From a bacterium (GTDB lineage: Bacteria > Patescibacteria > Saccharimonadia > Saccharimonadales > UBA4665), in assembly GCA_021778165.1 (NCBI GenBank), contig JAJYCU010000054.1, positions 1-5,247 of the forward strand: a DNA stretch of 5,247 nucleotides, read 5' to 3'. Numbering within the stretch: position 1 is the first letter of the stretch; every line of letters starts with the position of its first letter. The notes beneath the pieces were generated by a model. That model did not search any database, was not told where the DNA came from, and worked only from the letters and a program-made list of their open reading frames with translations. Shown one piece after another: positions 1 to 5,247 of this stretch. Both the position numbers and the translations under genes were made by a program.

Positions 1-534
1 TTCCTAGAACAGCTCGAGGGAGATTTAAAATTTTCTGCTGAAAAGAAGAAATTGTTTAGTGAGTTTGTAATTGGATCCAGCAAGAATATCGACGCGTCCA
101 CTAATAATCTCACCGAAAATCATCAGGTGAAACCACTATACTATGTCCTGATTGATCCCGATAGAATGAGAGAAGTTATAATTAATCTCTTTGATAATGC
201 AGTTAAATATACGGAGGAAGGGAAAATTTCAATCGGCATCACAGGAGATTCAGATATTGTTCAGTGTTATGTTAGAGATACCGGTGTAGGTATACCGACT
301 GAGGATATTACTCATCTTTTCCAAAAGTTTTATAGAGTAGATAGTTCTGCAACTCGAACCATAGGTGGAACAGGTTTAGGGCTTTTTATATCTAAAAAAA
401 TAGTAGAGTTATATCAGGGAAGAATCTGGGTAGAGAGTCAACTAGGAAAAGGTACAACATTTTTTATAAACCTTCCTAGAATTTCCAACGACAAGGCAAC
501 AGAGATGCAAAATAAGTTAATTAACCCATCTTAA
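1..534 (+). CDS. Sensor histidine kinase, C-terminal catalytic part (5' end outside window)
   Basis: Reading frame 1 is open from the first base, so this is the last 177 residues of a longer protein. It is the HATPase_c domain that binds ATP and phosphorylates the conserved His of the preceding dimerisation domain, which lies outside the window with any sensor or membrane segments. All ATP-binding boxes are visible: N box NLFDNAVKYT (about residues 62-71), G1 box DTGVGIP (93-99), F box FQKFYR (107-112) and G2 box GGTGLGL (122-128). The domain closes with the usual segment (GRIWVESQLGKGTTFFINLP) and a short polar tail. Intact boxes indicate an active kinase. The response regulator 61 nt downstream is the obvious phosphotransfer partner by position. 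The signal sensed cannot be deduced. The family call is very safe; a specific name is not possible. Confidence 0.96.
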   Translation, partial: FLEQLEGDLKFSAEKKKLFSEFVIGSSKNIDASTNNLTENHQVKPLYYVLIDPDRMREVIINLFDNAVKYTEEGKISIGITGDSDIVQCYVRDTGVGIPTEDITHLFQKFYRVDSSATRTIGGTGLGLFISKKIVELYQGRIWVESQLGKGTTFFINLPRISNDKATEMQNKLINPS

Positions 535-547
535 AAAATTTTATATA

Positions 548-556
548 TGATACAAT
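548..556 (+). promoter_or_regulatory. Extended -10 promoter for the response regulator
   Basis: TGATACAAT lies in the 61-nt gap after the kinase stop: TG, one base, then TACAAT (5 of 6 match to TATAAT). Transcription would start near 563, giving a leader of about 33 nt that contains an AAAAGGA ribosome site. No good -35 hexamer is seen at the right distance, which extended -10 promoters can tolerate. The regulator may thus be expressed independently of the kinase as well as by read-through. Inferred from sequence only. Confidence 0.5.
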
Positions 557-595
557 AAAAAAAGAATAAGCATTAAGATTGGCAAAAGGAAAAAA

Positions 596-1483
596 ATGGC
601 TAAAATTCTACTAGTTGAAGACGATAATAACCTTCGAGAAATTTATGAGGCTAGATTACAGGCGGAAGGTTTTTCTATCGTTTCCGCTCATGACGGAGAA
701 GAAGCTCTGGTTGTAGCAAAAGGTGAAAGACCTGATCTTATCATTTCAGATGTCATGATGCCTAAAATTAGTGGGTTTGAGATGTTAGACATAATCAGAG
801 CTACTCCAACTTTGGCTAATGTAAAAATTATAATGCTAACAGCTTTAGGACAAAATGAAGACCAAGACCGAGCTAATAAACTAGGAGCTGATAGATATCT
901 AGTAAAATCTCAAGTAACCCTAGAAGACATCGTAAATACGGCTAACGAGCTATTAAATCAATCAAGTGCCCCAACCTTAGAACAATTAAACTCAGACTCT
1001 ACAGTTCCTCAAGTAAACCAATTGACCGACGAAGTACCTCCAATTGAAACTAACTCCACTTTTTCTAGTAGCACTACTAGTATTGATCCAGTACCGCCTA
1101 CTCAATTCAATCCAATGGACACAACACCAACTGAGCCCGTTTATCAAGCACCTACACCCCAACCAAATCCAATAGTAAACGAAGTAGTTGCTGAACCTTC
1201 ATTTTCTAGTACCCAACCTATAATTCAAAATCCTGTATCTACCACCTCCAATCAAGATTTGATTAATCGAGCAGTTGAGGAGATTAATCAAGCATCTACA
1301 ACTAATGTCGAAGACGAAGCTGTTAACCTACCGCCAAGTATGAATAATCCTCTTGGAGGACAAAGAACAATTCATCCCATATCAAATATCTCAGAACCCA
1401 AAATCGATATAAATACTCTAGACAACTCCACGACGCCAGAAGTAAACAAAGATGAATTTGATCCAAACAGTGTTGCTCTATAA
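596..1483 (+). CDS. Response regulator: receiver domain with long disordered C-terminal tail
   Basis: Residues 1-120 form a complete CheY-like receiver domain. The acidic pair is D9/D10, the phospho-acceptor is D52 in SDVMMPK, the switch residue is T82 in MLTA, and the conserved Lys is K104 in YLVK. It should accept phosphate from a histidine kinase, most simply the one encoded just upstream. Residues 121-295 are rich in Pro, Thr, Ser, Asn and Gln with several PxP patterns. They contain no winged-helix, HTH, GGDEF or other recognisable output domain; one short helix-like stretch (DLINRAVEEINQA, about 221-233) stands out. The tail is therefore probably disordered, and output by protein contact is inferred rather than DNA binding. 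The ATG is supported by AAAAGGA ending 5 nt upstream and by the receiver fold beginning at residue 3. The protein is far longer than single-domain receivers (about 120-130 residues). Confidence 0.93.
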   Translation: MAKILLVEDDNNLREIYEARLQAEGFSIVSAHDGEEALVVAKGERPDLIISDVMMPKISGFEMLDIIRATPTLANVKIIMLTALGQNEDQDRANKLGADRYLVKSQVTLEDIVNTANELLNQSSAPTLEQLNSDSTVPQVNQLTDEVPPIETNSTFSSSTTSIDPVPPTQFNPMDTTPTEPVYQAPTPQPNPIVNEVVAEPSFSSTQPIIQNPVSTTSNQDLINRAVEEINQASTTNVEDEAVNLPPSMNNPLGGQRTIHPISNISEPKIDINTLDNSTTPEVNKDEFDPNSVAL

Positions 1484-3570: not shown

Positions 3571-4215
3571 GTGGGTTGGATGCAAAAGAAAATAAATACT
3601 CCCTCGATTACATCGTTTTATAGTTTGAATTCAACTCCAGTTTATTTAATCGTCGGGCTCGGTAATCCAGGAGAAAAATATAAATTAAATTATCACAACG
3701 CCGGATTTTTATCAGTAGAAAATTTAGTACTTAGTAACGACTCTAGTTGGCACTTAAAAAACAACTTTAATGCTGAACTAGCTGAATTTTATTTAAATGA
3801 AAACAAAATAATTTCAATAAAACCAAATACATACATGAACAACAGCGGAGATGCCGTTAAAAAAGTTATGGATTTTTACAAAATAGATCAAAACAAGGTC
3901 ATCGTTATTCATGATGATTCAGACCTGGAGTACGGAGTAATTCGAACTAGATTTGGCGGATCAAGTGGGGGCCATAACGGAATTGAATCAATTATCAATA
4001 GTCTAGGAGAAGAATTCAATCGAGTGAGAATTGGGATTAGATCAGATATAAATAAAAATGAATCCGCTGGAGATATGGTTTTAAAAAATTTTTCAAAAAA
4101 TGAACAATCTCATTTTCCAGAATTATATAAGGAGACTACTTCCATGATTCAAGAGTTTATATATTCTCATTCAAACAACATAAATTCTGAAACCAGATCG
4201 TTTCTACTGAAATGA
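3571..4215 (+). CDS. pth: Peptidyl-tRNA hydrolase, bacterial Pth family, with N-terminal extension
   Basis: Pth cleaves the ester bond of peptidyl-tRNAs that drop off ribosomes and recycles the tRNA. The core starts at YLIVGLGNPG (about residue 25). Equivalents of the E. coli functional residues are present: N32 (Asn10), catalytic H42 (His20), N90 in KPNTYMNNSG (Asn68), D115 in HDDSDL (Asp93) and N136 in GGHNG (Asn114). Spacings between them match E. coli, so the enzyme should be active. The GTG start chosen from the ribosome site gives 214 residues, about 20 more than E. coli, because of a 24-residue Ser/Thr/Lys-containing N-terminal segment. There is no Met between residue 4 and the core; only a TTG at residue 19 could shorten it. 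The residue before the catalytic His is Tyr (NYHNAG), where E. coli has Arg. The gene follows der by 4 nt and ends in TGA. Confidence 0.96.
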   Translation: MGWMQKKINTPSITSFYSLNSTPVYLIVGLGNPGEKYKLNYHNAGFLSVENLVLSNDSSWHLKNNFNAELAEFYLNENKIISIKPNTYMNNSGDAVKKVMDFYKIDQNKVIVIHDDSDLEYGVIRTRFGGSSGGHNGIESIINSLGEEFNRVRIGIRSDINKNESAGDMVLKNFSKNEQSHFPELYKETTSMIQEFIYSHSNNINSETRSFLLK

Positions 4216-4219
4216 ATTT

Positions 4220-4267
4220 AAACTAAAAGAGTCTCCGGAGGGGGTGGGCACCGCCGGAGACTCTTTC
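4220..4267 (-). terminator. Intrinsic terminator of the minus-strand RNA (possibly also used by the pth operon)
   Basis: A perfect 13-bp inverted repeat pairs 4226-4238 with 4254-4266 (AAAGAGTCTCCGG and its complement), with a 15-nt loop. Read on the minus strand, the GC-rich stem is followed by UUUUAGUUU, a plausible release tract. On the plus strand the stem is followed only by UUUCAAG, so it is a weaker stop for der-pth transcripts, whose stop codon is 10 nt before the stem. The loop also takes part in the pseudoknot described separately. Confidence 0.65.
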
Positions 4268-4315
4268 AAGAGATAATTTTAAAAATTATCTCTTATACAC
4301 CCTTCAACCCACCCC
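4241..4315 (-). other. Predicted pseudoknot: terminator loop with upstream G-rich strand
   Basis: On the minus strand GGGGUGGG (4315-4308) is perfectly complementary over 8 bp, seven of them G-C, to CCCACCCC in the terminator loop (4248-4241). A second hairpin (AAGAGATAATT, 4268-4278, paired with 4284-4294) lies wholly between them. The result is a compact 3' domain of two hairpins closed by a loop-to-strand helix. The complementarity is seen directly; that it forms is inference. Confidence 0.55.
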
Positions 4316-4350
4316 AATGAAGCATCATAGTTAAAAAATAAATAATTACT

Positions 4351-4399
4351 TGTGCCGGTTAAAATAACCATCGTTTAGATTCATTTTGAACGGGGCATA
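4351..4399 (-). other. Predicted three-way junction within the non-coding RNA
   Basis: Outer helix 4351-4356 with 4394-4399 (6 bp, one mismatch-like position that is G-U in the plus sense but C/A on the minus strand), hairpin 4357-4361 with 4365-4369 (GGTTA/TAACC, 3-nt loop), and hairpin 4372-4377 with 4387-4392 (one non-Watson-Crick position). The arms abut with 0-2 unpaired bases. The GGTTA hairpin is perfect on either strand; the other two are less certain for the minus-strand transcript. Confidence 0.35.
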
Positions 4400-4424
4400 T
4401 AACATAAAGTTAAACGTTAAAGGG

Positions 4425-4518
4425 GTTAGTATGTTTTAGAGCAGACCAATTAATAAATTGGTCTCACAAGTTAAGGTGGAGGGTATATCAACTTAAAATG
4501 CCTCTAAAACACTCTAAC
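4425..4518 (-). other. Predicted long helix enclosing two hairpins within the non-coding RNA
   Basis: The outer helix pairs 4425-4429 with 4514-4518, 4432-4441 with 4502-4511 (a perfect 10 bp, TGTTTTAGAG), and 4442-4443 with 4499-4500, interrupted by a 2x2 internal loop and one bulged base. Inside are a perfect 8-bp hairpin (GACCAATT with AATTGGTC, 4444-4463, 4-nt loop) and a 5-bp hairpin (4468-4472 with 4490-4494). The loop of the latter reads CCCUCCACC on the minus strand. This is the strongest evidence for RNA structure after the terminator. Confidence 0.55.
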
Positions 4519-4569
4519 AAAGTTAGATGAAAATGTACTAGAGTACTAATTTAATACTCAGTATTTGCG

Positions 4570-4598
4570 ATTATAGCAAGAAAGTGTCTTAATGTCAA
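4570..4598 (-). promoter_or_regulatory. Perfect consensus sigma-70 promoter driving the non-coding RNA
   Basis: Read on the minus strand: TTGACA (4598-4593), a spacer of exactly 17 nt (4592-4576), then TATAAT (4575-4570). TG at the extended -10 position gives TGCTATAAT. Both hexamers match consensus at 6 of 6 positions. Transcription should begin near 4562-4564. Sequence upstream of the -35 is A/T-rich. It is by far the strongest promoter in the window, implying a very abundant transcript. No protein gene lies downstream on that strand before the terminator. Confidence 0.85.
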
Positions 4599-4673: not shown

Positions 4674-4844
4674 ATGAAGTTGGTAATTTCATTTTCTATA
4701 CTAATTGTATCAAGTTTGACCGGGTGGTTAGGTGCACTTCTTGATCACGGCAATTGGCTTGGAGGATGGAGCATTCTTTTTACAATTATTGGTAGTTTTT
4801 TAGGAATTTGGATTGGCTATAAAATTTATAAGAACTACTTATAG
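4674..4844 (+). CDS. Small two-helix membrane protein, 56 residues
   Basis: An open frame starts at ATG 4674 (MKLVISFSIL) and stops at TAG 4842-4844. Two hydrophobic segments, about residues 4-22 and 32-49, are separated by a short polar turn (LDHGNWLGG). The second is glycine-spaced (IIGSFLGIWIG) and ends in a basic tail (YKIYKNYL), which would favour a hairpin with both ends in the cytoplasm. No family is recognised. The layout resembles the many tiny integral membrane proteins of unknown function in small-genome bacteria. Reality of the gene is supported by its clean membrane pattern, a promoter-like element ending 8 nt upstream, and a position filling the gap before topA. It has no SD and is not in the same operon as pth. 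Confidence 0.72.
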   Translation: MKLVISFSILIVSSLTGWLGALLDHGNWLGGWSILFTIIGSFLGIWIGYKIYKNYL

Positions 4845-4893: not shown

Positions 4894-5247
4894 ATGAGTC
4901 GTAATTTAGTGATTGTTGAAAGTCCGGCGAAAGCCAAGACCATCCAAGGTTTTCTTGGTAAAGACTTCATTGTTCAGAGTAGCTTCGGTCATATTAGAGA
5001 TTTGCCATCCAAGGGAATGAGTATTGAGATAGATAATGGATTTAAGCCTATCTATGAGGTCCCAACTGACAAAAAGAAAATAGTCTCAGAACTAAAAAAA
5101 CTTTCAAAAAACTCAGAAGTTTGGTTAGCGACTGATGAGGATAGAGAAGGGGAAGCTATAGCCTGGCACTTAGCCAATGTTTTATCTTTAGACGCAAAGA
5201 AATCAAAACGAATTGTTTTTCATGAGATAACTAAAACTGCTATAAGT
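4894..5247 (+). CDS. topA: DNA topoisomerase I, N-terminal part (3' end outside window)
   Basis: The first 118 residues of a type IA topoisomerase, which relaxes negative supercoils by single-strand passage. The Toprim domain is clear: LVIVESPAKAKTI with catalytic E9 and K13, SSFGHIRDLP with H33, and the metal-binding motif ATDEDREGEAIAWHL with D81, D83 and E85. The segment ends with the conserved RIVFHEIT stretch. E9, K13 and H33 carry the same numbers as in E. coli TopA. The D-x-D-x-E triad comes about 30 residues earlier than in E. coli (D111), so the Toprim domain is a short version. The active-site Tyr is beyond the window. ATG 4894 is set by the family's usual N-terminus. No SD precedes it (upstream reads AAGTATATAACT). 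Confidence 0.97.
   Translation, partial: MSRNLVIVESPAKAKTIQGFLGKDFIVQSSFGHIRDLPSKGMSIEIDNGFKPIYEVPTDKKKIVSELKKLSKNSEVWLATDEDREGEAIAWHLANVLSLDAKKSKRIVFHEITKTAIS

Follow-up and report, generated by a model that had tools for sequence, protein, structure and literature searches.

The stretch of DNA analysed here (5,247 nt, referred to as the window) contains pth, the gene for peptidyl-tRNA hydrolase (3571-4215, plus strand; Pfam PF01195), and topA, which encodes topoisomerase I (Toprim; Pfam PF01751) and is truncated by the window end (4894-5247, plus strand). Between these two genes lie a structured non-coding RNA of about 340 nt on the minus strand (4222-4563), to which pth is the convergent neighbour, and a small hydrophobic ORF of 56 aa (4674-4844, plus strand), which is conserved in relatives. 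All three reading frames are located outside the RNA. The 56-aa ORF, which lies between the RNA promoter and topA, has no Pfam family and was found in 47 of 75 loci (window included). At the other end of the window, positions 1-1483 (plus strand) encode the end of a histidine kinase, followed by a long-tailed response regulator, ahead of the der operon.

A sequence-only reading of this region had claimed that a consensus promoter on the minus strand feeds into a stretch which encodes no credible protein, folds into long helices and ends in a GC-rich stem plus U-tract, and all of these features were recovered. The promoter is of the extended sigma-70 type (4570-4598, minus strand), with the -35 box TTGACA at 4598-4593 and TG plus the -10 box TATAAT (TGCTATAAT) at 4578-4570. 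It matches the consensus at 12 of 12 positions, with extended -10 and a 17-nt spacer, and was the single 12/12 match of the promoter scan within the window. As the 12 promoter-like sites in the window are fewer than the 20.1 found on average after shuffling, the weight is carried by the uniqueness and the conservation of this promoter. At least 9 of the 12 positions are matched in 153 of 154 homologues, all 153 with TG (which the scoring preferred); of these, 144 have the 17-nt spacing and 135 the -35 box TTGACA. The sole homologue without a scored promoter, L131, is cut by its own contig end. The conserved promoter is strong sequence-level evidence for transcription of the minus strand, and we infer that the RNA is transcribed and that its expression would be high. 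Both RNA boundaries are predicted, with the start placed about 7 nt past the -10 box and the end at the U-tract. A protein-coding gene was rejected, as neither strand of 4222-4598 contains an ORF of at least 40 aa and as the homologues vary widely in length. A cis-regulatory leader was rejected as well, because the RNA is oriented convergently to pth and divergently to the 56-aa ORF and topA.

The minus-strand fold has a z-score of -8.2, with 0 of 100 shuffles being equally stable. With the plus strand also reaching z = -6.2, energy alone leaves the strand undecided, and its assignment is based on the promoter and the 3′ hairpin. At the 5′ end, the minimum free energy fold contains a hairpin of variable sequence, P1 (4537-4562; this and all following elements on the minus strand). 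It is followed by a CUAAC...GUUAG element (4514-4526), whose GUUAG (4518-4514) alternatively pairs with a downstream CUAAC (4429-4425). As both pairings are nearly invariant, covariation favours neither of them (0 of 11 pairs). The helix P3 is formed by 4502-4512 and 4431-4441; in an anchored alignment its pairs 2-12 are paired in 92-95% of 154 sequences, with many pair types. Within the conserved C-rich internal loop UACCCUCCAC (4476-4485), ACCCUC is invariant among 47 aligned sequences. The long-range helix P4 connects CCCUUUAAC (4416-4424) with GUUGAAGGG (4308-4300) and is paired in 144-146 of 146 sequences; its ninth pair covaries from C-G to G-C (E=0.0066), while the other pairs are nearly invariant. 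A short helix, P5, was assigned by eye and without statistics, with AAUGA in the window and AGCGA or AGUGA elsewhere as 5′ strand (4381-4385) and UCAUU in the window and UCGCU or UCACU elsewhere as 3′ strand (4316-4320).

The 3′ hairpin (4226-4266), which has the GC-rich stem and the U-tract of an intrinsic terminator, consists of a 13-bp stem (4266-4254 with 4238-4226) and the 15-nt loop CGGUGCCCACCCCCU (4253-4239), with a short U-tract beyond the stem. The terminator scan reported no terminator in the window, including this hairpin, as it admits loops of 3-8 nt only. Of 154 host 3′ hairpins, 151 have at least five T within a window of 8 nt which begins inside the stem. Nine consecutive stem pairs (4-12) are paired in 153-154 of 154 sequences, with the first of the nine never varying. 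The hairpin is preceded by a dispensable one (4268-4294), which is missing in some homologues (e.g., L017 and L026). A G-rich strand, GGGGUGGG (4308-4315), is complementary to CCCACCCC of the 3′ hairpin loop, and a pseudoknot between the two is proposed. With G-U pairs allowed, GGGUGGG and the loop sequence CCCACCC can form all seven pairs in 106 of 146 sequences and six of the seven in 40. As the loop side is invariant, covariation gives no support for this putative pseudoknot.

For the proposed structure as a whole, 17 of 48 pairs covary at E<0.05 against a phylogenetic null, compared to 1 of 136 pairs in control structures with slid partners. The null was tree-based and was built for this analysis in place of R-scape. 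The covarying pairs are distributed over P3 (5 of 13), P4 (1 of 10), the 3′ stem (10 of 12) and the inside of the 3′ loop (1 of 2); an all-against-all test yielded nine pairs with E<0.05, every one of them in the 3′ stem. For this set, 156 sequences were reduced to 154 and then to 117 by removing those that were identical or lacked an anchor. The RNA thus has statistically supported covarying pairs, as seen in conserved structured RNAs. That this is a genuine conserved structured RNA gene appears virtually certain to us.

The homologues were collected in steps. When the GTDB family of G002 was searched at the DNA level, 74 of 93 genomes gave matches, with blocks of near 100% identity. Profile searches matched the window and 74 of 74 loci (L053 and L082 in part only) and, in the enlarged set, 156 of 156 sequences, all of these loci having been picked through an earlier match. 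L053 and L082 were left out of the resulting 73-row alignment, in which pairwise identities range from 50 to 94% (median 62%) and segments measure 363-496 nt, promoter and margins included. L031, L032 and L036 were not used for model building, for which 57 dereplicated sequences were reduced to 47 (A1) and 43 (A2).

Most homologues retain the der-pth-RNA-topA neighbourhood, which in a scan for relatives of Der was represented by the MAG contigs L001 (90%) and L002 (86%), both with the order der-pth-[region]-small ORF-topA. Across 75 loci, pth was found in 68, on a constant side and convergent to the RNA. The opposite side had topA in 46 loci, and topA was never seen on the side of pth; short loci limit both counts. 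Two of the 75 rows (L032 and L049) exhibited none of the neighbours. Extra sequence of 0.3-1.1 kb separates the neighbours in many rows, and inserts between the RNA and its neighbours were seen in many genomes (e.g., L059, L052 and L023).

Covariance models of the 5′ domain (R1) and the 3′ domain (R2) matched 203 and 209 of the 294 genomes of the order, respectively. About 30% of the genomes were thus without a match to either single model, which may reflect incomplete metagenome-assembled genomes or a real absence of the RNA. In a sample of the whole phylum R1 matched 24 of 379 genomes, all 24 being among the positives of the order. The order can be named from its 16S genes, which were found in 8 of 12 genomes queried and exhibited no mismatch to the sites of TM7-580F, TM7-567 and TM7-905 in any of the eight. 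These probe sequences, we assume, identify 16S genes as belonging to Saccharibacteria/TM7, and the order was taken as Saccharibacteria for this reason. The RNA occurs across one order of the Patescibacteria, Saccharibacteria/TM7.

No match to any Rfam 15 family at gathering score was obtained in the window, nor in 20 homologous loci (53 kb); at E<=10 the window gave only weak matches far under the cut-offs. tmRNA (RF00023) was not found at the locus by ARAGORN or Rfam, although it was over the cut-off in 69 of 92 genomes of the family, and the RNase P RNA model (RF00010) had no match at the locus but was over its cut-off in 77 of the 92. In G001, G002 and G067 both genes sit away from this RNA. 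The 6S RNA model (RF00013) did not match the locus either. 6S-like matches were present in 12 of the 92 genomes, none over the cut-off and none at this RNA. In nine of these 12 genomes the sub-threshold match lies at most 3 kb from the RNase P RNA gene (e.g., L183, G093:C1:160958-161106), and this site is a candidate 6S RNA of the lineage. The SRP model had no match in the window and the 20 homologues. An identity with tmRNA, RNase P RNA or 6S RNA was therefore rejected, given that no model matched here and that separate genes or candidates lie elsewhere in the genomes compared. A resemblance of GTTTTAGAGC to a CRISPR tracrRNA was judged to be fortuitous, since the sequence of this helix is unrelated in divergent homologues.

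Searches of the PMC literature (supplements outside their scope) yielded no paper that describes this RNA. The available portions of papers on a diverged RNase P RNA in CPR bacteria (PMC8172020) and on candidate RNAs, which are deposited as supplementary files (PMC8040213), do not describe it, nor do those of PMC7160235 and PMC10633639, and in the available portion of PMC2864571 the terms sought do not occur. The suggestion of the sequence-only reading that the locus might represent an undescribed RNA class of its lineage has thus been strengthened: there is no Rfam match, relatives have both the promoter and covarying pairs, the RNA is widespread in Saccharibacteria and the positives of the phylum-wide sample are confined to that order. 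Apparently, this is an RNA class of Saccharibacteria that is new by these searches. What is new is, mechanism aside, the RNA family and a loop which it shares with viruses.

This loop, on the 3′ hairpin, occurs in two forms among 154 host RNAs, GG..CC (127) and GA..UU (27), and in no other. When 286 Patescibacteria genomes were scanned for its c1 form as a 15-mer, six had it, each a single time and within the RNA, compared to no occurrence of the reversed 15-mer. In the 800 kb of the host genome G067 the loop occurs a single time, in the RNA, and no further hairpin with the loop core was found there. A 17-mer around the 3′ loop was detected at 37 sites in 36 viral contigs of IMG/VR, of which 33 sites exhibit a stem of at least 7 bp in the register of the RNA, the sequence of the stem being variable. 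The other host form, GAUGCCCACCCUU with a closing U-A pair, was found at 52 viral sites, 32 of them with such stems. As the exact viral loop follows from the design of the search, the informative parts are the stems and the contrast with hybrid loops, which in the register of the RNA gave 0 of 80 (80 listed of 118 stretches) and 0 of 29. The c1 14-mer without its closing context gave 4 of 54 (54 new stretches out of 80 listed, at least 120 in all), and random positions 124 of 54,000 with stems of at least 7 bp. Under a looser register, in which a few bases may slip, the natural loops remained at 33 of 37 and 32 of 52, hybrids reached 3 of 80 and 5 of 29, the 14-mer alone 12 of 54 and random positions 536 of 25,100, so that the contrast between natural and hybrid loops shrinks.

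The 65 viral hairpins lie in 59 distinct surroundings. A U-rich tail is present at 19 and missing at 46 of them. GGGTGG within 200 nt is missing at 57 of 63 viral hairpins, compared to 34 of 154 host RNAs. A viral pattern with variable gap gave no matches. The internal-loop motif occurs in 20 viral contigs, none of which matched R1 besides L185; the two covariance models were applied to 100 of 107 viral loci. L185, the one IMG/VR contig detected with a pattern derived from the RNA, contains a copy of the whole RNA with promoter (R1 99 bits, R2 71 bits) which is 77% identical to the nearest host RNA compared. The eight ORFs scanned in its 8.4 kb include two DNA methyltransferases, a KhpA-like KH protein, an FtsK/PDDEXK protein and a RecT-like protein just below the Pfam cut-off; pth and topA were not found among these eight. 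The RNA copy (7940-8367, plus strand) lies about 1 kb from a stand-alone loop hairpin in the same contig (6857-6885, minus strand).

With ORFs of at least 100 aa considered, 34 of 67 sites (stem of at least 6 bp) are located between two co-directional ORFs in sense orientation and one in antisense; five lie inside an ORF (four sense, one antisense), and the rest fall at convergent or divergent positions or contig ends. With ORFs of at least 60 aa, 25 sense and two antisense sites lie between co-directional ORFs and 22 inside one (eight sense, 14 antisense), many of the latter being likely spurious. At 15 of the 34 sites with an upstream ORF in sense, the hairpin starts 0-17 nt past the stop codon. 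A PHROGs protein scan covered 12 viral contigs. In five of them (L230, L249, L258, L281 and L295) a major head protein is encoded by the second or third ORF downstream, and these proteins belong to four different PHROG families; in L301 the hairpin lies between portal and head protease. In the other six the hairpin is not directly followed by a gene for a capsid protein or a protease: L242 has a terminase-like protein, L285 a ParB-like/methyltransferase protein, L226 a primase upstream, L236 a terminase upstream, and L228 and L251 no assigned function. The name scaffold is supported by L295 alone. One phage group has the hairpin at the same site in form c1 in eight contigs and in form c2 in L303. 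In this group (L231, L235, L241, L243, L244, L249, L250, L252 and L303) a second hairpin (CCAGC..GCTGG type) follows the loop hairpin, and an AAGGAG-like site precedes the next gene.

The viruses presumably infect Saccharibacteria, judging from the restriction of the loop to the RNA in the cellular genomes scanned and from the full copy of the latter in L185. Two phage portal proteins had no match in 177 and 182 genomes of the order in a search run without positive control. In INPHARED one of them had none and the other four distant matches. The nearest named relatives of one portal protein are Bifidobacterium phages (32-34% identity).

The gene, its conservation, promoter and fold, the two host loop forms and the viral hairpins with those forms were computed directly. 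Beyond these, we infer a housekeeping role, a factor acting in trans and an effect on phage mRNA. Most likely, the locus would produce an independently transcribed structured RNA that works as the RNA of a housekeeping ribonucleoprotein, its 3′ domain being closed by P4 and probably also by docking of CCCACCC in the 3′ hairpin loop on GGGUGGG. The 3′ loop would then be the recognition element for a trans factor, either an RNA-binding protein or the RNA's own G-strand. The mRNAs of phages infecting these bacteria may contain hairpins with this loop, often just past a stop codon and in several phages ahead of capsid genes, where the factor would act on the phage mRNA or be tied up by it. That the partner is likely in trans is indicated by the 57 of 63 viral hairpins without GGGTGG nearby. 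Pairing with GGGUGGG alone does not account for the loop, since hybrids retaining CCCACCC gave no viral hairpin in the register of the RNA. The contrast between natural and hybrid loops rather speaks for recognition of the entire loop, its inner G-C or A-U pair included, and thus for a protein or a structured docking more than for plain pairing with GGGUGGG. We lean, if only by a little, towards a housekeeping RNA whose 3′ loop is recognised by a trans-acting factor, which is exploited by phages as well.

The position of the viral hairpins favours an effect in cis on the phage mRNA, and it is this position, 0-17 nt after stop codons (15 of 34) and before capsid genes of four families, that speaks against a decoy. 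Such a hairpin would titrate the host factor or dock on the host G-strand in trans, and thereby disable the RNA in late infection. A loop that is shared on a stem that is free, a partner that is mostly in trans judging from GGGTGG, and late mRNAs whose abundance would make them good sponges all fit a decoy, but a virus disabling the RNA would hardly have kept a full copy of it as in L185, and we regard a decoy as unlikely, if quite conceivable. A base-pairing regulator similar to RNAIII, whose C-rich loops (UACCCUCCAC, UAACCCC and CCCACCCCC) would mask Shine-Dalgarno or other G-rich mRNA sites, draws on several conserved C-rich segments, one of them with CCUCC. Long motifs that hardly vary across the order, G-rich partners within the RNA, and viral hairpins in which both loop and closing positions are retained are, however, atypical of seeds adapting to their targets; we consider such a regulator clearly improbable.

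Even less probable is that the 3′ hairpin is a mere intrinsic terminator with a loop favoured by the lineage, the viral hairpins being ordinary terminators of that lineage. The run of T at 151 of 154 host hairpins and the U-rich tails of 19 viral ones would agree with this, but the other 46 viral hairpins are without such a tail, many are located between co-directional genes, and a loop found once in an 800 kb host genome is no general terminator loop there. That the RNA is a divergent form of tmRNA, RNase P RNA, 6S RNA or SRP RNA, as its size and wide occurrence might suggest, can hardly be reconciled with the tmRNA and RNase P RNA genes found elsewhere where compared, the weak 6S candidates at other sites and the lack of Rfam matches, and we give it next to no credence. 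Returning to the housekeeping RNA with an exploited 3′ loop, a more far-reaching version may be formulated tentatively, although we rather doubt that it holds in full: a core RNA on which Saccharibacteria depend would be exploited by unrelated phages, each of which independently placed a clade-matched hairpin with the exact loop before capsid or other genes, and the host RNA or a dedicated protein would process, stabilise or translate the phage mRNA, or be disarmed by it, with one phage having acquired the RNA gene in its entirety. If this is true, an epibiotic bacterium and its viruses would meet at an interface of a new kind, based on RNA.

Few members of the candidate phyla radiation have been cultivated, the tiny and epibiotic Saccharibacteria being among them. 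To our knowledge, little is known about gene control in Saccharibacteria, and an RNA that is widespread in the order and lies outside every catalogued family tested offers an entry point to it. The RNA is also experimentally approachable, as a genetic system with natural transformation and Tn-seq is described in the available portion of a study on Southlakia epibionticum (PMC10633639). The viral copies of the loop can help to find the binding partner of the RNA, and the loop is a marker that may assign virus contigs without a host to Saccharibacteria, perhaps even to either of two clades by its form.

Other large structured RNAs of bacteria with unknown or partly known function are OLE, GOLLD, ROOL and raiA, of which GOLLD and ROOL are associated with phages or prophages. 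Like these, the RNA described here is long, strongly conserved, encoded by its own gene and restricted to a lineage; unlike these, it has no Rfam match in the window and 20 homologues, belongs to another lineage and has its 3′ loop on stand-alone viral hairpins. With 6S RNA, tmRNA, RNase P RNA and SRP RNA it shares the wide distribution in its lineage, an own gene and the type of strong promoter, whereas its locus matches none of their models and tmRNA and RNase P RNA come from other genes. RNAIII of Staphylococcus aureus has C-rich loops, one of them on the 3′ terminator hairpin, a trait which this RNA has in common with RNAIII and other sRNAs with C-rich loops. In contrast to RNAIII, its loop is shared with viruses in two forms of two host clades, and it has an internal G-rich partner strand and a distribution resembling that of a housekeeping RNA.

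On the viral side, mimics and sponges are known in the form of anti-CRISPR RNAs and phage-borne sRNA sponges. Here, too, a virus bears a small piece of a host RNA recognition element, but it takes the form of a hairpin loop located between genes of the phage and is neither a repeat mimic nor a free sRNA. T7-like phages have RNase III processing hairpins before their late genes. The hairpins found here are likewise located between co-directional phage genes and in some contigs ahead of capsid genes; they differ in that their loop is shared with a host RNA while the stem sequence is free. That viruses have hairpins with exactly this end loop suggests a role in viral infection for the RNA or for its loop-binding partner.
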